Origin: a virus
Length of the DNA: 28,437 nucleotides
Direction: 5' to 3' (one strand)
IMG/VR virus record: IMGVR_UViG_3300035698_010038
Location: 1 to 28,437 of that record
Part shown: positions 1 through 7,859 of the stretch, one piece after another
How the letters are laid out: each line of letters begins with the position of its first letter
How positions within the stretch are numbered: position 1 is the stretch's first letter
Position numbers and translations under genes: made by a program
Notes under the pieces: generated by a model
The model's input: only the letters and a program-made list of their open reading frames with translations
Told to the model about the DNA's origin: nothing
Databases searched by the model: none

Positions 1-6
1 CAGCGT
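1..6 (+). CDS. Major capsid protein, end of upstream exon (partial)
   Basis: These six bases (codons Gln-Arg) are the visible end of the upstream exon of the capsid gene; the rest lies before the window. The exon end is placed after T6 because GCGTTT (3-8) pairs with AAGCGC (17-22), putting a U-G wobble at T6/G19, the hallmark of a group I 5' splice site. Joining to 1356 keeps the frame: CAG CGT | TTG GCG TTT GAT reads QRLAFD. The boundary is inferred from pairing, not from cDNA. Confidence 0.6.
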
Positions 7-307
7 TTATTAAACTAAGCGCACATTAGTAGCAATACTAATAAAAAAATATCTCGTAAATTGCTGGAAAATCTTTAGAGCTTATTTAACCACAACATAA
101 CTTGAAAAGGTAAGTGTGATGGTTTGAAAATAAATGAGATTAGACAATCAGCAGCCGAGCTCCTTTTTAAAAATGGAGAAGGTTCAGAGACTAAAGACGA
201 GACATCCTATAATTAGGATGATGATATAGTCCGTACTTCATAGTAATATGAAGAGCTTAATAGAAATATTAAGTCTTGTTTACATTAAAATAAATAATAT
301 TATTGTA

Positions 308-363
308 GGGGCTAAGAAGAAACTTATAATCTCTTCGATGGTTGCCTATCACAACCAAGCCCC
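308..363 (+). promoter_or_regulatory. HEG-linked three-way-junction RNA, copy 1
   Basis: Closing stem GGGGCT (308-313) / AGCCCC (358-363). First inner hairpin GAAGA (316-320) / TCTTC (332-336) with an 11-nt loop. Linker GAT. Second inner hairpin GGTTG (340-344) / CAACC (352-356) with a 7-nt loop. It ends about 10 nt before the AGGAG (374-378) of the endonuclease gene. The same fold with compensatory changes precedes the other two intron HEGs. I do not recognise it as a named family; a role in HEG translation or expression is inferred. Confidence 0.7.
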
Positions 364-386
364 TTATCTTGATAGGAGATAAAATA

Positions 387-1355
387 ATGAAAAAGAAAAT
401 TTTCAAGAAAAAGTTTTTAAAATGTTTAGATTGTGAACAATTAGTAGAAATTGGTTCAAATGTTCATAAAATAGTATGTCAGAATTGTAGAAAACTAAGA
501 GAAATACCTAAAGATATTATAGGCGTAGAAAATATAGATTATGTTGTTTGCCAAATATGTAAGTATAAATATTTACAAATAGATTTTCATCATTTGTTAG
601 AAAAACATAACATTACATTTGATCAATATAAAGAAATGTTTCCTAATACTAAGTTAAAAGTACAGAAAATTATAGATAGCAGAATCAATAAGTTAATAGG
701 CAAAGAAAAAGAAGATTTTTGTATAAAATGTAATCGGGTTGTTAATATAAAAATGGCAGCAAATTTTGGAAGAACAATTTGTAATAAATGCAGATCAAAA
801 GAAAATGTCAATAGGAATTTTTCCAGGAGTAAGAAAAAAGACAACTATGTAATGTGTTTTGTATGTAACAAGTATCTAAAAAGAATTACTAATACACATC
901 TAAAACAACATGGTTTAAGTTTTGAGCAATATAAAATATTATATCCAGAATCTGTAATGACATCAAAAGATGTCTGGGAAAAAACTACTAGTAATAAAAA
1001 GTACAAAGATACAAGTATAGAACTTTTAATACAAAAATCAGTAGAAGATAGAAATATAAGATATGAGAAAAATGCAACTTTAGTAGGTAGACCCGATCTT
1101 CTATTATTAAACAAAATTTGTATTTTCTGTGACGGTGATTATTATCATTGTAATCCAGTAAAATATAGTAAAGATTATTTCAACGAAAAAGTTGGAAAAT
1201 ATGCCTATAAAATTTGGGAATATGATAGTTTGGTAGCAAAAATACTAGTAAACAAAGGATATGTGGTTCTAAGATTTTGGGAATGTGACATTAATAACAA
1301 TCTTGAAAAATGTGTAAAAATAATAATTGATAGTGTAAACAGAGTAACAAAATAG
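387..1355 (+). CDS. Intron-encoded homing endonuclease, zinc-finger/MucR-like repeats plus Vsr-like nuclease
   Basis: A 322-residue protein. It starts at ATG 387 with AGGAG at 374-378; an upstream TTG at 342 lies inside the three-way junction and is rejected. The N-terminal two thirds carry CxxC pairs (C13/C16, C31/C34, C55/C58, C112/C115, C132/C135, C157/C160). Two of them are followed by paired His and a Ros/MucR-like 'H-x-(I/L)-(T/S)-F-(D/E)-Q-Y-K' stretch (about 55-90 and 157-190), so a zinc-binding DNA-recognition region is likely. The C terminus (about 210-315) resembles Vsr/EDxHD homing nucleases such as I-Bth0305I: PDLLL near 236, CDGDYYH at 248-254, D280 and RFWE at 296-299. It should cut intronless capsid alleles and spread the intron. 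The stop codon supplies the intron's final G. Confidence 0.85.
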   Translation: MKKKIFKKKFLKCLDCEQLVEIGSNVHKIVCQNCRKLREIPKDIIGVENIDYVVCQICKYKYLQIDFHHLLEKHNITFDQYKEMFPNTKLKVQKIIDSRINKLIGKEKEDFCIKCNRVVNIKMAANFGRTICNKCRSKENVNRNFSRSKKKDNYVMCFVCNKYLKRITNTHLKQHGLSFEQYKILYPESVMTSKDVWEKTTSNKKYKDTSIELLIQKSVEDRNIRYEKNATLVGRPDLLLLNKICIFCDGDYYHCNPVKYSKDYFNEKVGKYAYKIWEYDSLVAKILVNKGYVVLRFWECDINNNLEKCVKIIIDSVNRVTK

Positions 1356-1598
1356 TTGGCGTTTGATGGGTTGAGGGATTTTGCTGAAGGCACAGCAGTT
1401 AACTTAGCAGGAGCCACATTTGCACTCGCAGATATTTCCGCGGCAATAAAAAATCTCGGAAAATATGGTAGAGACAAATCTGAACTTCTGTTAATTACTT
1501 CTCTAAGAGAAGAAGACGTTCTTCGTAAACTCCTTGGAATTAACCTCGCGTTAAATCAATTAGGACTTACAGGTACGGCTCTTCCCGGAGAAATCGGT
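1356..1598 (+). CDS. Major capsid protein, exon 2
   Basis: 81 codons, open throughout, reading LAFDGLRDFAEGTAVNLAGA and onward to LPGEIG. It joins in phase 0 to the next exon (GEIG | KVWGVPVV). The text looks like the C-terminal part of a HK97-fold capsid protein. Its position directly upstream of connector and neck genes, and the presence of three introns, which favour conserved essential genes, support that reading. Codons are richer in C/G-ending choices (CTC, CGT, GCG) than those of the genes downstream, as expected for a very highly expressed protein. The 3' end is set by P1 of intron 2 (AATCGGT with GCCGAT at 1611-1616). Identity as capsid is by context and sequence feel; no structure was compared. 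Confidence 0.75.
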
Positions 1599-2520
1599 GA
1601 CAATAACTTTGCCGATGTTAAAACTCGTAAATTCGGTGGATCTCCAGAAATGGACAATACCGAGCCAAGCCTCTGTATAGAGGAAGGTGTAACGACTATA
1701 CACGAGTCTTCTAATATAAATTAGAATGAAGATATAGTCTGAACTACAGCAATATATGAAACTGTAGATGTAGGCAGAAATGTCCTACACTTTAAAACTT
1801 ACGGGGCTTAAGATAGACCTCATGAATCTATCGAGACTGCTTATTCCAGTCAAGCCCCTATCTCGAATAAGGAGTTAAAATGGTAAGAAAAGGAACTACA
1901 TTATCTCAAGAAACAAAAGATGCTATAAGTAAAAGTGTAAAGCAAGCATTTAAAGAACACCCAGAGATTATTACAAATGGTGTTAAAAAATGGAAAAAGT
2001 TCTTCAACACAGAAAAAGGTAAAAAGGGTTGGCAACAGACAAACAAGAAAAGAAGTGATTCAGCAATAGGAAAGAAAAAGAAACCTTTTACGGAAGAACA
2101 TAAGAAAAATATAAGTTTAGCAACAAAAAGGCAATACAAGATTATGTTTCCTTGGGGTAGAAGAAAATCATCTAAAGTACATTTAAAGTTTAAGAAAGAA
2201 TTAAAAAAGTTTTGTAAGTGTTTTAAGTCAGAACAGTTTATTCGTTTAGCAGATATACAAAAATGGGTTTGTATAGATGAATTAGATAGAAAGAACAAAA
2301 TTGCTATATTTGTAGATGGAGAACACTGGCATGCAAGAAATTATAAAGATGATTACATAGTTCCCCTTATCAATAAATCATCAAAAGAAGTTAGAGATTA
2401 TGATAAACTAGTTACCGAAAAGTTAGTCATTAAAGGCTATAAAGTTTTAAGATTTTGGGATAGTGAAATTCATAACGATATTGATGATTGTGTAAAAAGA
2501 GTTTTAAAAGTAACAAACTG
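1599..2520 (+). ncRNA. Group I intron 2 in the capsid gene, with HEG near its 3' end
   Basis: 922 nt. P1 pairs ATCGGT (1593-1598) with GCCGAT (1611-1616), with a U-G wobble at T1598/G1611. P10 pairs AACTTT (1605-1610) perfectly with the 3' exon AAAGTT (2521-2526), fixing both splice sites. P2 is absent. P3 is ACTCGT / ACGAGT; P4 is CGGT / ACCG; P5 is TCCA-GAAA-TGGA; P6 is CCTC/GAGG. P7 is formed by the R element GTAACGACTA and the S element GATATAGTCT (about 1732). P9 is CTACAG/CTGTAG and P9.1 is TGTAGG/CCTACA. It differs from introns 1 and 3 by its very short P5 and missing P2. It carries the three-way junction and an HEG after the core. Confidence 0.9.
1803..1858 (+). promoter_or_regulatory. 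HEG-linked three-way-junction RNA, copy 2
   Basis: Closing stem GGGGCTT (1803-1809) / AAGCCCC (1852-1858). First inner hairpin GATAGA (1812-1817) / TCTATC (1827-1832) with a 9-nt loop. Second inner hairpin GACTG (1835-1839) / CAGTC (1847-1851) with a 7-nt loop. It ends 10 nt before AAGGAG (1869-1874) and the HEG start at 1880. The inner stems differ in sequence from copies 1 and 3 but keep full pairing. Confidence 0.7.
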
Positions 2521-2521
2521 A
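1880..2521 (+). CDS. Intron-encoded homing endonuclease, NUMOD3-like N terminus plus Vsr-like nuclease
   Basis: 213 residues; ATG 1880 with AAGGAG at 1869-1874. The N terminus has NUMOD3-like helices of the 'G-T-T-L-S-Q-E-T-K-D-A-I-S' and 'P-F-T-E-E-H-K-K-N-I-S' kind (residues 5-18 and 69-80), rich in Lys and expected to bind DNA modularly. The C terminus holds a Vsr/EDxHD-like core: VDGEHWH at 145-151, VRDYD at 171-175 and VLRFWDSEI at 189-197. This matches the C terminus of the HEG in intron 1 segment by segment, although their N termini are unrelated. The TGA stop straddles the splice junction (TG in the intron, A in the exon), so this stop codon is destroyed as an intron/exon boundary by splicing. 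Confidence 0.85.
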   Translation: MVRKGTTLSQETKDAISKSVKQAFKEHPEIITNGVKKWKKFFNTEKGKKGWQQTNKKRSDSAIGKKKKPFTEEHKKNISLATKRQYKIMFPWGRRKSSKVHLKFKKELKKFCKCFKSEQFIRLADIQKWVCIDELDRKNKIAIFVDGEHWHARNYKDDYIVPLINKSSKEVRDYDKLVTEKLVIKGYKVLRFWDSEIHNDIDDCVKRVLKVTN

Positions 2522-2733
2522 AAGTTTGGGGAGTTCCTGTAGTCAGTTCACTACTTTTGTTGGAGACTTATACAACCGACGAAGCAAGTGCTGTTAATGG
2601 AACATATTCAAATGCGCTGATGCTGAACAGGAATGCGGCTATAATAGGTGACCGTAGGATATTCACGATCAAAGTGTCTGATGAAGTCCTTGTAAGAACC
2701 GACCAGTTGCTGATCGTAGCATCTGAAAGGTTT
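2521..2733 (+). CDS. Major capsid protein, exon 3
   Basis: 71 codons if it ends at T2733: it begins KVWGVPVVSS and ends DQLLIVASERF. The start is fixed by the perfect P10 of intron 2. The end lies within T2731-T2733, because group I 5' splice sites follow a U and P1 of intron 3 can be formed in more than one register. The translation continues the capsid reading frame without stops. A late segment of this kind (RRIFTIKVSDEVLVRTDQLL) is plausible for the P-domain or C-terminal strands of a capsid subunit, but that is inference. Codon choice again differs from the A/T-ending codons of downstream genes. Confidence 0.75.
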
Positions 2734-2771
2734 AGAAACTTAAATTTAAAAAAGTATGATATAATATATAT

Positions 2772-2824
2772 GGGGCTAAGTTTGAACTAATTACTCAAAC
2801 GATGGTGCCTTTACACCGAGCCCC
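2772..2824 (+). promoter_or_regulatory. HEG-linked three-way-junction RNA, copy 3
   Basis: Closing stem GGGGCT (2772-2777) / AGCCCC (2819-2824). First inner hairpin GTTTGA (2780-2785) / TCAAAC (2795-2800) with a 9-nt loop. Second inner hairpin GGTG (2804-2807) / CACC (2814-2817) with a 6-nt loop. AAAGGAG (2834-2840) and the HEG start at 2847 follow. Unlike copies 1 and 2 it lies before the intron core, so it travels with the HEG rather than being part of the ribozyme fold. Confidence 0.7.
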
Positions 2825-2846
2825 TAAAATCTTAAAGGAGATTACA

Positions 2847-3545
2847 ATGAAAAAAGGTTCTAAGCATAAAAAAGAATCTATACAAAAGTTAAGAGTAAGT
2901 TTATCAAATCAATTTGAATCTGGAAGAAAAGTTTGGAATAAAGATTTAACTAAAGAAAAAGATCATAGAATTATAACCACAAGAGGCGCTTGGAAAAAAG
3001 GTAATATCCCTCACAATACAGGAAAAACAAAAGAAAATTATATTCCATTAATAAAAGTTTCTAAAAAGTTAAGTGGTAAAAATAATCCTGCTTGTAGGGA
3101 AGAAGTTAGAAATAAAATAAGCGATAGTTGTAATGGTAGAATTCCTTATAATAAAGGAAAAACTTTAGAACAAACTTGTGGGAAAGATAAAGCTAAAGAA
3201 ACTAGAAGAAAAATGAGAATTGCTGTTGTTGAAAGAATAAAAGATAGTAGCGGCATTGCTTATCCAAACTATAATAAAGAAGCTTGTAAATTTTTTAAAT
3301 CATTTGATGAAAAACATAATACAAAAGGCTATTATGCTATGCAAGGTAAAGGGGAGTATGAAATTCCAAAATTAGGGTATTTCCCAGATTATATAAATTT
3401 TGAGAAAAAGCTAATTATGGAATATGACGAACTCGCACACTTTGATAAACATGGTAATCTTAAATTAAAAGATATTCAAAGACAAAAAGAAATACAAGAA
3501 ATGTTTCCAGATTTTAAATTTAAAAGAATAAAACAAAAGTATTAA
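2847..3545 (+). CDS. Intron-encoded homing endonuclease, NUMOD-like repeats plus PD-(D/E)xK-like nuclease
   Basis: 232 residues. ATG 2847 follows AAAGGAG (2834-2840); an earlier in-frame ATG at 2802 lies inside the three-way junction and is rejected. The N-terminal half contains NUMOD-like units, including WNKDLTKEKDHRI (30-42), AWKKGNIPHNTGKTKE and PYNKGKT (100-106). The C-terminal half (about 138-230) has a nuclease-like core: YPNYN, GKGEYEI with E170, GYFPDYINF with D181, LIMEYDE with E192/D194/E195, H198, and KDIQRQKEI with D209. This resembles PD-(D/E)xK nucleases found in phage HEGs, but the family name is tentative. The same core occurs in the free-standing HEG at 5228-5881. It lies in the same transcript as the capsid. 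Confidence 0.8.
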   Translation: MKKGSKHKKESIQKLRVSLSNQFESGRKVWNKDLTKEKDHRIITTRGAWKKGNIPHNTGKTKENYIPLIKVSKKLSGKNNPACREEVRNKISDSCNGRIPYNKGKTLEQTCGKDKAKETRRKMRIAVVERIKDSSGIAYPNYNKEACKFFKSFDEKHNTKGYYAMQGKGEYEIPKLGYFPDYINFEKKLIMEYDELAHFDKHGNLKLKDIQRQKEIQEMFPDFKFKRIKQKY

Positions 3546-3808
3546 AATTTAAGCTATATAGACCCTTTGAGTAGAAATACTCACTGAATAACCCTGGAAA
3601 TTGCTGGAAACTCCTTAGAGTTAGTTATACTACAAAGCAAATTCTTTAAAACGAATTAAACTTGAATGTTAGAAAAATAACTAAATTGGACAATCAGCAG
3701 CCGAGCCCGAAAGGGAAGGTTCAACGACTACGCTCAGGGATTCCGAAAGGAATATGATATAGTCTGGTCTTCATAGAAATATGAAGTTAACACAAACGAG
3801 CATTCAAG

Positions 3809-3856
3809 GGTCAATATTCCGACGCTATTGTGAAGGTTAGAAACATCGGTGCCTAA
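3809..3856 (+). CDS. Major capsid protein, last exon
   Basis: The final codons read GQYSDAIVKVRNIGA then TAA (3854-3856). The frame is certain from the open run before the stop; the exact first base is not. The sequence upstream in frame is A-F-K (3800-3808), so the spliced junction could read ERF-GQYSD, ER-S-FKGQYSD or similar, depending on the splice site used. Three introns thus fall within roughly the last 170 codons of the capsid gene. Confidence 0.7.
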   Translation, partial: GQYSDAIVKVRNIGA

Positions 3857-3882
3857 AGTTTCATTTTAGAAACGCACTTTTG

Positions 3883-3910
3883 TGGAGGGGGATGAAACAC
3901 TCCCCCTCTA
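3883..3910 (+). terminator. Terminator-like hairpin after the capsid gene
   Basis: A 10-bp stem (TGGAGGGGGA / TCCCCCTCTA, one G-U pair) with an 8-nt loop sits 27 nt after the capsid stop. A long U tract does not follow, so it could be a factor-assisted terminator, an attenuator, or an RNA-stabilising 3' end for the abundant capsid message. Confidence 0.6.
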
Positions 3911-4055
3911 CTTAACAGATATGAATATATCATATAAATCATAATTTTATATTAGGAATATACTTTATAAGATACGTTATTAACTTTATATACTATCAGA
4001 AGCACCAGACTGACACCAGATGAATTTTTATACAAAAAATATAGGAGATATACAA
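3911..4055 (+). promoter_or_regulatory. AT-rich intergenic stretch, possible promoter region
   Basis: This is the only sizeable non-coding gap between the capsid and the next genes (about 145 nt). It contains TATAAATC (3933-3940), close to a T4-type late box, and two TATACT hexamers (3959-3964 and 3989-3994), 30 bp apart. No good -35 partner is visible. The position after a hairpin makes a new transcription start reasonable, but the boxes alone are weak in such AT-rich DNA. Confidence 0.25.
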
Positions 4056-4112
4056 ATGATAAAAACGTATCGTAGCGGGGATGTAAATTATATTAATGGA
4101 GGGAAGAAATAA
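4056..4112 (+). CDS. Tiny ORF before the connector genes (18 aa)
   Basis: MIKTYRSGDVNYINGGKK, with a good ribosome site TAGGAG (4043-4048) 7 nt before ATG. Its TAA is directly followed by the ATG of the next gene. Its start resembles the start of the next protein (MIKTYR versus MVKVYR, then a shared N), so it may be a duplicated, truncated N terminus or a leader that couples translation; its 3' part (GGAGGGAAG) is also the ribosome site for the next gene. Whether the peptide has any function is unknown. Confidence 0.4.
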   Translation: MIKTYRSGDVNYINGGKK

Positions 4113-4559
4113 ATGGTAAAAGTATATAGAAATAATGAATTAAATGTATTTAGCACAAATGTTACTATGAATAAGTCTGCTAGATTAGGAAGACCTTATT
4201 CTCAACAGCCTGGTAGACAACACGGTGAGGGTGCAGGAAAGATAAAGAATCCAATGTATATTGATGACCAGCATTTATGTGAAATTGAAAATTATCGCTT
4301 AAATCTAAATCAGTTAAAATTAAAATTAGATGCATTTCAAGAAGAATACGGAGATTTAGAAAATACAAATCCAAGACTTTATAAAATTATGGTTAAAGAT
4401 ATTAAAGATAAGACTAATAAAGGTGCTGGCCATAAAGAAGCAAAAGATAAAAAATCTCAAAAAAATAATATGCCTGAAACAGATATTCCCAAAGTAGATG
4501 TTGAATTTGAAAAATCTAAACCCCGTACTGGTAAATCATTAACAGAAGTTAGGGAATAA
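4113..4559 (+). CDS. Hypothetical protein in the head-tail region
   Basis: 148 residues, unrecognised. It is strongly charged. The middle (about 48-90, CEIENYRLNLNQLKLKLDAF and on) looks helical with coiled-coil potential. The last 60 residues are a Lys/Glu-rich, low-complexity tail that is probably disordered. No signal peptide or membrane segment is present. GGAGGG (4099-4103 area) precedes the ATG, and the next gene begins 4 nt after its stop. The position between capsid and connector suggests a minor head or assembly protein, but nothing in the sequence proves that. Confidence 0.6.
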   Translation: MVKVYRNNELNVFSTNVTMNKSARLGRPYSQQPGRQHGEGAGKIKNPMYIDDQHLCEIENYRLNLNQLKLKLDAFQEEYGDLENTNPRLYKIMVKDIKDKTNKGAGHKEAKDKKSQKNNMPETDIPKVDVEFEKSKPRTGKSLTEVRE

Positions 4560-4562
4560 ATT

Positions 4563-5231
4563 ATGGCTTACTCTACAGCAGCAAGCCTTTTAAATACCGT
4601 TGGGCCTATTGTTGGACCCACTGATACAATAATTAATAATACTGATTATCAGAATCTTGCTTTACAAAATGCTAAATCTACAATAGATCAATATTGTAAT
4701 AGAGATTTTACACTACATTCAGATGTAATAGAGTTTCATGATGGTAATGCTAGAGATAGTATGAATACATATTATTATCCAATAGTGTCGTTACATTATG
4801 TGGTTATGTATAACCAGTTGATGCAGTCTATGAGAACATTTCTAGACACAGAAATAATAATACATCCTGAGTGGGGTGAATTATTTCTGCCTCCAATATA
4901 TCCAGTATTCTTAGCAGATAAGCCTTTTTCTGCAATGTTCGGAAATATATTTATAAGTGGCAGAAGAAATATAGAAATTAAATATAATTATGGATATGCT
5001 ACAACGCCAGATGATATTGCTCAAGCAAGCAATTTACTAGCAGCATCTTATATGATGAAATTAAAATTCGGTAATTTAACAATGGGAGCAAATAGTAGAA
5101 GTATTGATGGATATAGTGAATCTTTTGGTGCATGGAAGACAAACCCTTGGGGGTCATTGGCGGATACCTGGGAGTTACAGGCTAAAGAATTATATGCAAG
5201 ATACAAGAGGCTGTCAATGCGAGCTGTATGA
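4563..5231 (+). CDS. Head-tail connector, gp6/YqbG-like
   Basis: 222 residues. Features typical of the HK97 gp6/SPP1 gp15-type connector ring are visible: an early helix with 'A-K-S-T-I-D-Q-Y-C-N-R-D-F', then 'YYPIVSLHYVV', then 'IEIKYNYGYATTPDDIAQAS' followed by a long helix. Such proteins form the 12-fold adaptor beneath the portal. The gene ends LSMRAV with TGA (5229-5231), overlapping the ATG of a homing endonuclease. A second, differently coded copy of SMRAV-stop lies just after that endonuclease, so the present C-terminal codons may have been brought in with the HEG. The protein sequence is unchanged by this except for a possible Ile/Leu swap. Confidence 0.75.
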   Translation: MAYSTAASLLNTVGPIVGPTDTIINNTDYQNLALQNAKSTIDQYCNRDFTLHSDVIEFHDGNARDSMNTYYYPIVSLHYVVMYNQLMQSMRTFLDTEIIIHPEWGELFLPPIYPVFLADKPFSAMFGNIFISGRRNIEIKYNYGYATTPDDIAQASNLLAASYMMKLKFGNLTMGANSRSIDGYSESFGAWKTNPWGSLADTWELQAKELYARYKRLSMRAV

Positions 5232-5881
5232 TAAAAAGAACAAGAAAAAAACATTCTCAAGAATCAATAGAAAAACAAAGGCAAACCTTAAAATTAAAGT
5301 ATGCTACAGGAAAATGCGTTATTTGGAACAAAGGTAAAACAAAAGAAACAGATAAGAGAGTTAAAGTATATACTAAAAAAGTAACAGAGACAGCAAGAAA
5401 ACAATTTAAAGAAGGCCGAGTAGGTAATAGAAAAGGTGTAAAACTAAGCAAAGAAACAATTGAAAAAATGAAGGTCTCTCTTAAGGGTAGAGTTAGTCCT
5501 AGAAAAGGTGTAAAGTTATCTGAAGAAACTAAACTACTTATAGGAAAAGCGTCTAGGTTAGCTGTAATACAAAGAAAAATGTTAAATAACGGAGTATCTT
5601 TTCCAAATTATAACAAGAAAGCTTGTGAGTTCTTTAAATGTTTTGATGAAAAGAATTGCACTAAAGGTAGATATGCAGTTTATGGTAATGGGGAATATCA
5701 TATTAAAGACTTAGGATATTGGACAGATTACATAAATTTTGATTTAAAGTTGATTATGGAATATGATGAATCTCATCACTATGATACTAATGACAGTTTA
5801 AGAGAACAAGATATTCAAAGACAAGAAGAAATTCAAGAACTATTTCCTGACTTTAAATTTGAAAGAATTAAAGAATTCTAA
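5228..5881 (+). CDS. Free-standing homing endonuclease, same family as the HEG of intron 3
   Basis: 217 residues. It begins at ATG 5228 inside the connector stop (ATGA overlap), so translation is probably coupled; only a weak, distant AAGAGG lies upstream. No group I core surrounds it. The N-terminal half has NUMOD3-like repeats: VIWNKGKTKETDKRV (31-45), RKGVKLSKETIEKM (68-81) and RKGVKLSEETK (92-102). The C-terminal half matches the HEG at 2847-3545 closely: FPNYNKKACEFFKCFDEKN, GNGEYHI with E156, TDYINF with D167, LIMEYDE with E178/D180, HH at 183-184, D195 and LFPDFKFERI. It lacks the three-way junction found before the three intron HEGs. Its target is likely at or near the connector's 3' end. 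Confidence 0.8.
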   Translation: MIKRTRKKHSQESIEKQRQTLKLKYATGKCVIWNKGKTKETDKRVKVYTKKVTETARKQFKEGRVGNRKGVKLSKETIEKMKVSLKGRVSPRKGVKLSEETKLLIGKASRLAVIQRKMLNNGVSFPNYNKKACEFFKCFDEKNCTKGRYAVYGNGEYHIKDLGYWTDYINFDLKLIMEYDESHHYDTNDSLREQDIQRQEEIQELFPDFKFERIKEF

Positions 5882-5902
5882 ATTTCTATGCGCGCGGTTT
5901 AA
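5882..5902 (+). pseudogene. Displaced original 3' end of the connector gene
   Basis: Directly after the HEG stop, ATT TCT ATG CGC GCG GTT TAA reads ISMRAV-stop. The connector upstream of the HEG ends LSMRAV-stop, coded CTG TCA ATG CGA GCT GTA TGA. All codons that can vary do vary, including the stop. This looks like the native gene end left behind by HEG insertion. It is no longer preceded by the rest of the gene and is not expected to be translated. Confidence 0.65.
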
Positions 5903-5927
5903 ATAACTACAGAGGTAATATAAAATT

Positions 5928-7859
5928 ATGTCCGGAATACCAAATAAACCAATCAAACCTAAAATGCCTAAGATGGGAGGTTCAAAAGTCCCATCTAATG
6001 CTATTCCTCTTGGAAAAAATCAAATGCCTCCTGGAAATGGGCAGGTTATTCAAGGCCCTAAAGGTGGAAGATATTACGTTCCTGTGCCTGGAGAAAAAGT
6101 ACAACAGCCACAGCCTCAGACAGGAACAGCTGGTGTTCAACAACCGCAACAAATGCCTGGACAAATACCTCAACAAACACCACAACAAGTAACTCAGCCA
6201 GTTCCTCAACAAGTACAACAACCACAATTTACAGCTGAGCAGGCTAAACAATTATACCCCAATTTACCTAATCCTGAAAAATTAAAAGGAGCTTTACCAG
6301 AAGGTGTTTCTTGGTTTGATATAAAAGATGCATATAATCATTTATTAAATGCTAAAAAATTAATAAATCAGTATGCTGATGAGATACAGCAAAAATATCC
6401 CGGTAAATATGACGAATTAAATGGATTAGCTAATAAATTATTAGAGCAGTCTGCCAATTTATTTGGGTTAGAAAATATTCTTTCTGTTGGAAAACCTTCT
6501 AGAGTTAAACCCGTAACAGAAGAACAGAAAATGAAACGGCAAATGGGGCAATTTAAGACAAAACAACAATATGAAGAATTTAAACAACAGCAAGAATCTG
6601 AAAAAGAACGTCAACGGGCTGAGGCATCATACAGCATAGAAACTAAATCTATAAACATACCTACACCGAAATTTAATTTAACAGTTAATGATAAAAAATC
6701 TATAAGTAAGTATCACAAACAACAAGTTAATATTGAGGTAAAAGATATAGCTAAAAAAATAAATGAATTATTAAAATCCCGCGACCTTCATACTAAAATA
6801 GTTAAAATGCCAAAGTCTACAGATTTTGGCTATAGATTTACAGTAAAAATAGATAAAAGAGATATTTTAAATAAAAAAGTTGGAAGACTTCTCGGTGTTG
6901 TTGAAAGAGATATGAGTGCTTACACAAATAAAAATCTTAAAATAACGCGTGATGGAAGTAATATAGTAATTGATATGCCATCAAAAGAACCGGCTTTTGT
7001 TGATTTCAGTTCTCAATATAAAGAATTATCTCCAGAACAAAAAGTTAGGCCGGTTGTTTCATTAGGAAAAACTATGGATGGAGATAATATTAATGTAGAT
7101 ATAGGAAAATCAACTCACTGGTTAATAACTGGTTCTACTGGAAGCGGAAAATCAGTTATGCAAAATAATCTCGTAGGTTCTCTTGCTACAAAAAATCCAA
7201 ATGATGTAAGAATTATGTTAGTTGATCCTAAACAAGGTAATGAATTTAACCAATGGGAAAACTTACCTCATCTTGTAGGAAAGGTTGCTACAACGCCTGC
7301 TTTAGGGCTAGCTGCTATTAAAAATGCATTAAAAGAGGCTAAAGATAGACAAACACTTTTCGGAAAAGATAGAAATATTAAAACATATAATGATAAAAAT
7401 CCAGATAAAAAAGTACCTCATTTATATGTATTTGTAGATGAGTTTAAAGAAATGTTAGAGATGATGGGAGATAAAGGGTTTAAAAAATTAGTAGATAGGG
7501 TAGCTGCAACTGGTAGATCTTCAGGAATTCATTTGGTTTTAGGAACTCAATATGGTAGTGCTCAAACACTATCTAGTGGATTAATAAATAACTTACCAAA
7601 CAGAGTTATGTTTAATATGCCAGCAGATATTGTTTCTAAAAATTCATTTCTTAAAGAATCCGGTGTTGATCGTCTAGGTGAACCTGGAAATTTTGCATTA
7701 AGAACTCAAACATCGCCAACTACTAAAAAAGGTAGAGGTCCTTTTATTTCAGATAAAAACATTAACGAAATAAATAATTCTTGGGGAAAAACAAAAAATA
7801 AATCTATATGCATATTGCCTATAGAAAAAGTATTAAATTTACCTATAAGTAGGAGTTAG
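5928..7859 (+). CDS. FtsK/SpoIIIE-like DNA translocase ATPase in the head-tail cluster
   Basis: 643 residues. The first 100 are Pro/Gln-rich, with GPKGGRYYVPVPGEK (43-57), a short motif of the 'KGGRYY...G' type often seen in phage head proteins, then a Q/P tract (59-100). A helical region and an alpha/beta region (about 215-365) follow, in the position of the FtsK beta domain. The motor has Walker A GSTGSGKS at 402-409, DPKQ near 432, Walker B LYVFVDE at 499-505, RVAATGRSSGIHLVLGTQ near 530, and a long C-terminal RecA-like remainder. No FtsK gamma (winged-helix) domain or transmembrane segment is visible. FtsK-family proteins pump double-stranded DNA. Its position between connector and neck genes suggests a job with virion DNA (packaging, retention or delivery) rather than chromosome partition; that is inference. 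Confidence 0.85.
   Translation: MSGIPNKPIKPKMPKMGGSKVPSNAIPLGKNQMPPGNGQVIQGPKGGRYYVPVPGEKVQQPQPQTGTAGVQQPQQMPGQIPQQTPQQVTQPVPQQVQQPQFTAEQAKQLYPNLPNPEKLKGALPEGVSWFDIKDAYNHLLNAKKLINQYADEIQQKYPGKYDELNGLANKLLEQSANLFGLENILSVGKPSRVKPVTEEQKMKRQMGQFKTKQQYEEFKQQQESEKERQRAEASYSIETKSINIPTPKFNLTVNDKKSISKYHKQQVNIEVKDIAKKINELLKSRDLHTKIVKMPKSTDFGYRFTVKIDKRDILNKKVGRLLGVVERDMSAYTNKNLKITRDGSNIVIDMPSKEPAFVDFSSQYKELSPEQKVRPVVSLGKTMDGDNINVDIGKSTHWLITGSTGSGKSVMQNNLVGSLATKNPNDVRIMLVDPKQGNEFNQWENLPHLVGKVATTPALGLAAIKNALKEAKDRQTLFGKDRNIKTYNDKNPDKKVPHLYVFVDEFKEMLEMMGDKGFKKLVDRVAATGRSSGIHLVLGTQYGSAQTLSSGLINNLPNRVMFNMPADIVSKNSFLKESGVDRLGEPGNFALRTQTSPTTKKGRGPFISDKNINEINNSWGKTKNKSICILPIEKVLNLPISRS

Follow-up and report, generated by a model that had tools for sequence, protein, structure and literature searches.

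Positions 5130-5881 of the viral DNA analysed here very probably form an intronless homing cassette, which consists of a diverged C-terminal segment of a connector gene followed by a homing-endonuclease-like gene (HEG) with NUMOD3 and Vsr-like (EDxHD-type) parts, the HEG start overlapping the connector stop in the sequence ATGA (5228-5231). DNA cleavage by the enzyme, the position of the cut and an origin of the arrangement by the route seen at locus L043 (see below) are inferred. The DNA is IMG/VR virus record IMGVR_UViG_3300035698_010038 (28,437 bp), and the window, meaning the whole stretch that was analysed, spans positions 1 to 28,437 of it. The features of the region are as follows.

4563..5231, plus strand: invaded gene, head-tail adaptor (connector), 222 aa (ORF; E 2.1e-16 to phrog_442, head-tail adaptor; six distinct phage contigs without the HEG carry homologues)
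5130..5231 (left boundary approximate), plus strand: putatively foreign C-terminal segment that arrived with the HEG (composition, 3-aa insertion, identity drop)
5211..5231, plus strand: upstream, translated copy of the duplicated tail, LSMRAV-TGA (sequence)
5228..5881, plus strand: HEG4, free-standing homing-endonuclease-like gene, 217 aa (NUMOD3, kinship to an intron HEG, Vsr/I-Bth0305I-like fold, no group I match)
5435..5542, plus strand: NUMOD3 DNA-binding motif of HEG4, residues 70-105 (PF07460, 33.5 bits against a curated cut-off of 20.4)
5597..5878, plus strand: predicted catalytic domain of HEG4, residues 124-217, PD-(D/E)XK/Vsr-like (alignment, structure model)
5882..5902, plus strand: remnant of the native gene end, ISMRAV-TAA, unjoined from the connector reading frame (TAA stop, which all uninvaded relatives share; the counterpart of this remnant in L043 matches the uninvaded allele at 100% identity)
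5928..7859, plus strand: next native gene, FtsK/SpoIIIE-like ATPase (gene after the connector in the nearest relative, L003; synteny by tblastn)

The connector gene end lies on both sides of the HEG

The connector protein ends in YKRLSMRAV-TGA, its last codons being CTG TCA ATG CGA GCT GTA TGA (5211-5231), and the second copy, ATT TCT ATG CGC GCG GTT TAA (5882-5902), stands immediately 3' of the HEG stop codon (5879-5881) and in the same frame as the HEG. The duplicated stretch in the window comprises only six codons. All four shared codons that can change synonymously differ between the copies, and so do the stop codons, TGA upstream and TAA downstream. When codons are drawn independently according to contig codon usage, the fourfold difference has a P of about 0.09, and it is therefore not evidence of selected recoding in the window. 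The codon differences are probably of the kind left by ordinary divergence, without any need for selection. A previous sequence-only reading had described both tails with these bases and positions, the change of every codon able to change synonymously and the differing stops. All of this held as observation, whereas its interpretation as recoding was not supported.

HEG4 is a predicted EDxHD-type endonuclease outside any detectable intron

HEG4 shares 43% identity with the intron HEG at 2802-3545, which lies inside the interrupted capsid gene about 1.7 kb away. In an alignment of five sequences, residues E156, D167, E178, D180, H184 and D195 are invariant. The modelled C-terminal domain superimposes on Vsr (1cw0) with a Z score of 7.3 and 2.2 A over 81 residues, and on I-Bth0305I (3r3p) with a Z score of 7.1 and 2.7 A over 74 residues. 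Model confidence is modest (pLDDT 64 overall), the Foldseek E-values are not significant, and Z scores under 8 can reflect a merely common arrangement. Thus HEG4 is predicted from the model, with fair likelihood, to be an EDxHD-type endonuclease of unknown activity.

A search for group I introns gave no match at 5150-5960, even at an E value of 5, with the group I matches of the window located elsewhere, at 1-253 and 1558-1760 in the capsid gene. As no group I intron is detectable around it, HEG4 is regarded as free-standing. No homologue of HEG4 was found in named phages or in GTDB genomes.

Uninvaded relatives have a single tail and the upstream tail is atypical

Connector homologues in further phage contigs were found from a two-sequence alignment; none was found in named phages or in GTDB genomes. 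All six distinct homologues without the HEG have one tail and end in TAA like the downstream copy (RRLTPRAI, KRIYARSA, KRVYARAV, RRQFQRSI, RKQFQRSI and RRRFQRSI). In several of them the stop is written TAATG and overlaps the next gene. The gene after the connector in L003 is FtsK-like, and in the window such a gene comes next after the remnant.

The upstream tail of the window departs from the family starting near codon 190, over some 33 codons at the gene end (about 5130-5231). The GC content of this segment is 0.47 compared with 0.32 in the rest of the gene, its GC3 is 0.48 compared with 0.18, and only 1.9% of the 99-nt windows in the genes of this contig match its GC content. A GC shift this large is absent from all relatives of the gene. 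The segment also carries a 3-aa insertion relative to the relatives, and identity to L003 falls from 67% in the connector core to 28% in the tail segment, which is not above that to other relatives. No donor of the GC-rich tail was found in named phages, and no uninvaded allele close to the window connector was found, the nearest core identity being 67%. Consequently the breakpoints in the window are inexact, and the claim of a foreign tail rests on composition and similarity. On these grounds alone, it is likely that the upstream tail of the window is a diverged foreign segment, and that the cassette took the place of about 33 codons, the final six alone still occurring in two copies after loss of the rest of the native tail.

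The sequence-only reading had proposed a minimally recoded copy of six codons; this was not borne out, the substitute having instead the appearance of a diverged foreign tail about 33 codons long. It had also predicted that uninvaded relatives would be single-tailed like the downstream copy. This held for the six homologues with respect to one tail, the absence of a HEG and the TAA stop; for the predicted reading (L/I)SMRAV, no relative near enough to read SMRAV itself was found.

A natural pair of alleles with and without the element

Locus L043 carries another HEG behind a duplicated gene end, and for this locus the empty allele is available. Upstream of the element, L043 from 1753 to 4775 is identical to L069 over 3,023 nt, and downstream L072, a twin contig of L043 with the same element, is identical to L069 and L073 over 1,968 nt. 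Between the identical flanks, 653 nt (L043:4776-5428) replace 86 nt (L069:3025-3110). The replacement consists of 41 codons resembling another lineage together with the HEG. These codons are nearer to L070 (mostly 0.7-0.8 per 30-nt block) than to L069 (about 0.5-0.6), and 3' of the HEG the native last 11 codons and stop are unchanged, with 100% identity to the uninvaded allele.

In L043, then, a single replacement that comprises both the HEG and the diverged C-terminus separates the invaded from the empty allele, the copy downstream of the HEG is what is left of the native gene end, and the substitute C-terminus is of foreign origin, closest to lineage L070. For that phage the comparison comes close to direct proof of the mechanism proposed below, although cleavage remains inferred in the absence of cleavage data. 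The earlier proposal that a HEG inserted near the gene end with a replacement C-terminus, leaving the native tail behind, accordingly held: it fits the window, and is seen directly in L043 compared with L069 and L073.

L043/L072 and L069/L073 come from related metagenomes and are identical over about 5 kb around the site, one HEG and C-terminus cassette apart; the uninvaded L073 and L043 share one metagenome.

The layout recurs at other HEG loci

An unanchored local-alignment scan missed the window case and was replaced by a stop-anchored test, in which the tail of the upstream gene is compared (BLOSUM62) with every reading that ends in a stop just 3' of the HEG. The sample comprised 138 distinct HEG loci gathered from HEG relatives, and 18,906 cross-locus comparisons served as the null. 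The window scores 24, a value reached by only 0.1% of the null comparisons. Four loci (the window, L015, L043 and L076) score at least 24, against 0.13 expected, the highest score being 47. The window seeded the search, L015 and L043 had been seen in an exploratory pass before the null was fixed, L076 came from a fresh set, and a final fresh NUMOD set yielded no new case. The layout is thus uncommon, at about 2 to 3% of the surveyed HEG loci. A fifth locus, L189 (score 22), was judged a chance match.

The tails before and after the HEG are VGLFDQCLWG-TAG and QGKWDECLWG-TAA in L015, and LVSKIGGKIS-TAA and MASKIGKVVS-TAG in L043. In L076, KQNIKPSVR-TAA is followed by a leader (see below), the HEG and NIKPSVK-TAG at about 3311-3337, with the HEG stop inside the remnant. 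Unlike in the window, remnant and HEG are in different frames in all three. Over the four cases 14 of the 20 shared codons capable of synonymous change differ, about 70% (10/14 for three; L076 was counted by eye). A homologue of the gene invaded in L076 (L156, 43% identical) ends in KQNLVPVVR with one tail and no HEG, and the L076 phage also carries an uninvaded connector (L007). For L015 only partial tail relatives exist (L066, L067), and its uninvaded state is unproven. The C-terminal part of the L043 HEG is HNH-like and the L015 HEG is PD-(D/E)XK-like; with domain types assigned by inspection only, it appears probable that several nuclease types use the layout.

Eleven matches to the HEG4 family were noted in one phage contig of 178 kb (G005, IMGVR_UViG_3300032046_000003). 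Several lie between genes with start-stop overlaps, and one is the tail duplication of L076.

Proposed mechanism and rival explanations

Intronless homing is known to proceed by a break, resection and repair from a HEG-bearing donor with co-conversion of the flanks (PMC2988022). In the mechanism proposed here, the endonuclease would act on a co-infecting phage whose connector gene is uninvaded and cut that gene at its 3' end, and the break would be resected and then repaired from the HEG-bearing copy via homology in the gene and in the flank. The recipient would gain the HEG and, in frame, the donor C-terminus, giving a functional protein from a gene without the target sequence, and its own last codons and stop would stay as a remnant 3' of the HEG. 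Given a donor whose gene end has already diverged, the logic of intronless homing predicts exactly such an anatomy. Recipients are thought to be protected because the cleavage sequence is replaced by that of the donor (PMC12724721). The target of I-Bth0305I is nearly 60 bp (PMC3943268), so that a replaced C-terminus would remove much of a site of that kind. That the insertion destroys the recognition site of its own nuclease, as the sequence-only reading held, and does so through the altered tail, is only inferred, as there are no cleavage data.

A bolder reading, which we consider likely, is that phages harbour a recurrent, undescribed homing cassette of the form host-gene C-terminus plus HEG, which HEGs from different nuclease families employ independently, colonising the ends of essential genes without intron or intein and spreading divergent virion-protein C-termini between phage lineages.

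Three other explanations were weighed. The downstream ISMRAV could have arisen by chance, or belong to an intron or recoding signal that escaped recognition, and it is indeed short and shares the frame of the HEG. This explanation is all but excluded: few comparisons of the cross-locus null (0.1%) reach a stop-anchored score of 24, the layout recurs at three other loci with scores up to 47, at all of which the remnant stands in another frame than the HEG, and no intron match was found in the segment. Alternatively, the tail of the connector itself could have been doubled around the HEG, for example by slippage at a break, after which the copies drifted. In favour of this, the peptides encoded by the two copies are nearly the same, and no special cause is required for as many codon differences as are observed. 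Such a local duplication is nevertheless very unlikely, as composition and similarity set the upstream segment apart over ~33 codons, and in L043 the upstream tail is like that of another lineage while the flanks and the downstream copy equal the uninvaded allele, a combination that drift cannot yield.

Classical T4-like intronless homing is harder to set aside. The free-standing seg/mob enzymes of T4 cut hundreds to thousands of bp from their own genes and co-convert the flanks (PMC2988022), and the cut therefore need not be at the connector tail. An intergenic HEG would then cut elsewhere, the altered tail would be a by-product of co-conversion, and the ISMRAV remnant would be unrelated to protection from cleavage. 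Against this explanation, which is considered unlikely, there is no gap between the HEG stop and the remnant in the window, and in L043 no more than 86 nt, adjoining the HEG, were replaced, a pattern that a cut in or close to the gene end explains more readily. The homing cassette with its own replacement gene end thus remains the preferred reading.

Relation to known systems

The closest parallel is in fungal mitochondria, where atp6, atp9, cox2 and nad3 of Glomus sp., and earlier atp6 of Allomyces, were found to contain mobile ORFs with an inserted C-terminus (PMC3630166). Between the two atp6 tails of Glomus, identity is 63.5% at the DNA level and 91% at the protein level, and no native tail was detected in mRNA (PMC3630166). 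As in these fungi, a diverged C-terminus is fused in frame to the invaded gene and placed before the HEG in the window, the native C-terminus is displaced downstream of the HEG (in the window, and with exact identity in L043), the copies diverge far more in DNA than in protein, and the tail comes from another lineage in L043, as composition and similarity suggest for the window. Unlike the fungal cases, the present ones belong to dsDNA phages and affect virion genes as well as others, and the enzymes are not LAGLIDADG or GIY-YIG but NUMOD plus Vsr-like or, by inspection, HNH-like or PD-(D/E)XK-like. The start-stop overlap of the window and the near-identical pair with and without the element (L043) are further differences.

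With SegF, SegG and MobE of T4 and the HNH enzymes of lactococcal Skunavirus the cassette shares a free-standing phage HEG, often overlapping the upstream stop, and a recipient thought to be resistant through donor sequence at the cut site (PMC2988022, PMC12724721). In those systems, however, the cut sites lie in a separate region, and a duplicated or displaced gene end is undescribed in the searched parts of both papers (PMC2988022, PMC12724721). Like I-Bth0305I (EDxHD) and the Vsr fold, HEG4 combines a NUMOD-type DNA-binding part with what the model predicts to be a C-terminal Vsr-like domain, but it is divergent in sequence (11% over the aligned domain), not in an intron and of unknown activity.

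No phage example of a HEG carrying a C-terminus was found in the open-access literature searched, subscription papers and preprints being outside the scope. Within this literature the earlier statement that duplicated gene ends are known from fungal mitochondria (Allomyces atp6), with no commonly described phage example, held. Cassettes of C-terminus and HEG are thus of a kind known from fungal mitochondria, and their occurrence in phages, undescribed in the literature searched, is well supported.

The usual view is that conserved essential coding sequence admits mainly HEGs concealed by introns or inteins. By bringing its own replacement gene end, a free-standing HEG gets round this restriction, and the recipient would, if cleavage occurs as inferred, obtain a target-free allele in one step. 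Foreign C-termini grafted onto virion proteins mean that trees of genes close to HEGs, and the protein boundaries there, may be misleading. Such intronless homing can be put to a direct test with the L043/L069 pair, alike but for the cassette, and stop-anchored tail matching offers an easy means of detecting HEG insertions and predicting their landing sites.

A leader RNA of phage HEGs and the split capsid gene

In this phage group a conserved leader RNA was observed directly 5' of several HEG-like ORFs of different types, both intron-borne and free-standing; HEG4 is without it. It folds into a three-way junction and a hairpin that holds the Shine-Dalgarno sequence. The copies are located as follows.

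Window, 302-390, 1798-1885 and 2766-2852: before the three HEGs in the capsid-gene part
L076, 2566-2653 and 3649-3734
L164, 1257-1344
L079, 2029-2116
L006, 2469-2556 and 3673-3764
L007, 2291-2378 and 3466-3552
L003, 4128-4217
L227, three copies

The third loop is complementary to the Shine-Dalgarno stretch over 6-7 nt in all 12 distinct copies, the complementarity summing to 77 against a shuffled mean of 44 and maximum of 60. Covariation is strong, with changes on both sides in 16 of 23 pairs, a level reached by none of 500 shuffles. No match was found in Rfam, and one copy searched permissively gave only chance-level matches. The RNA could possibly be a new translation-masking regulatory RNA of phage HEGs, and is put forward as a candidate only.

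In the first 3900 nt of the window (1-3900), a capsid-like gene appears to be interrupted at three places by intron-like insertions that each contain a HEG of their own. Two are group I introns according to Rfam (1-253 and 1558-1760), and the third (about 2770-3800) is similar-looking and unmatched at the gathering threshold. The exon pieces align by eye to the intact, uninterrupted capsid ORF of L002 (2793-3713).
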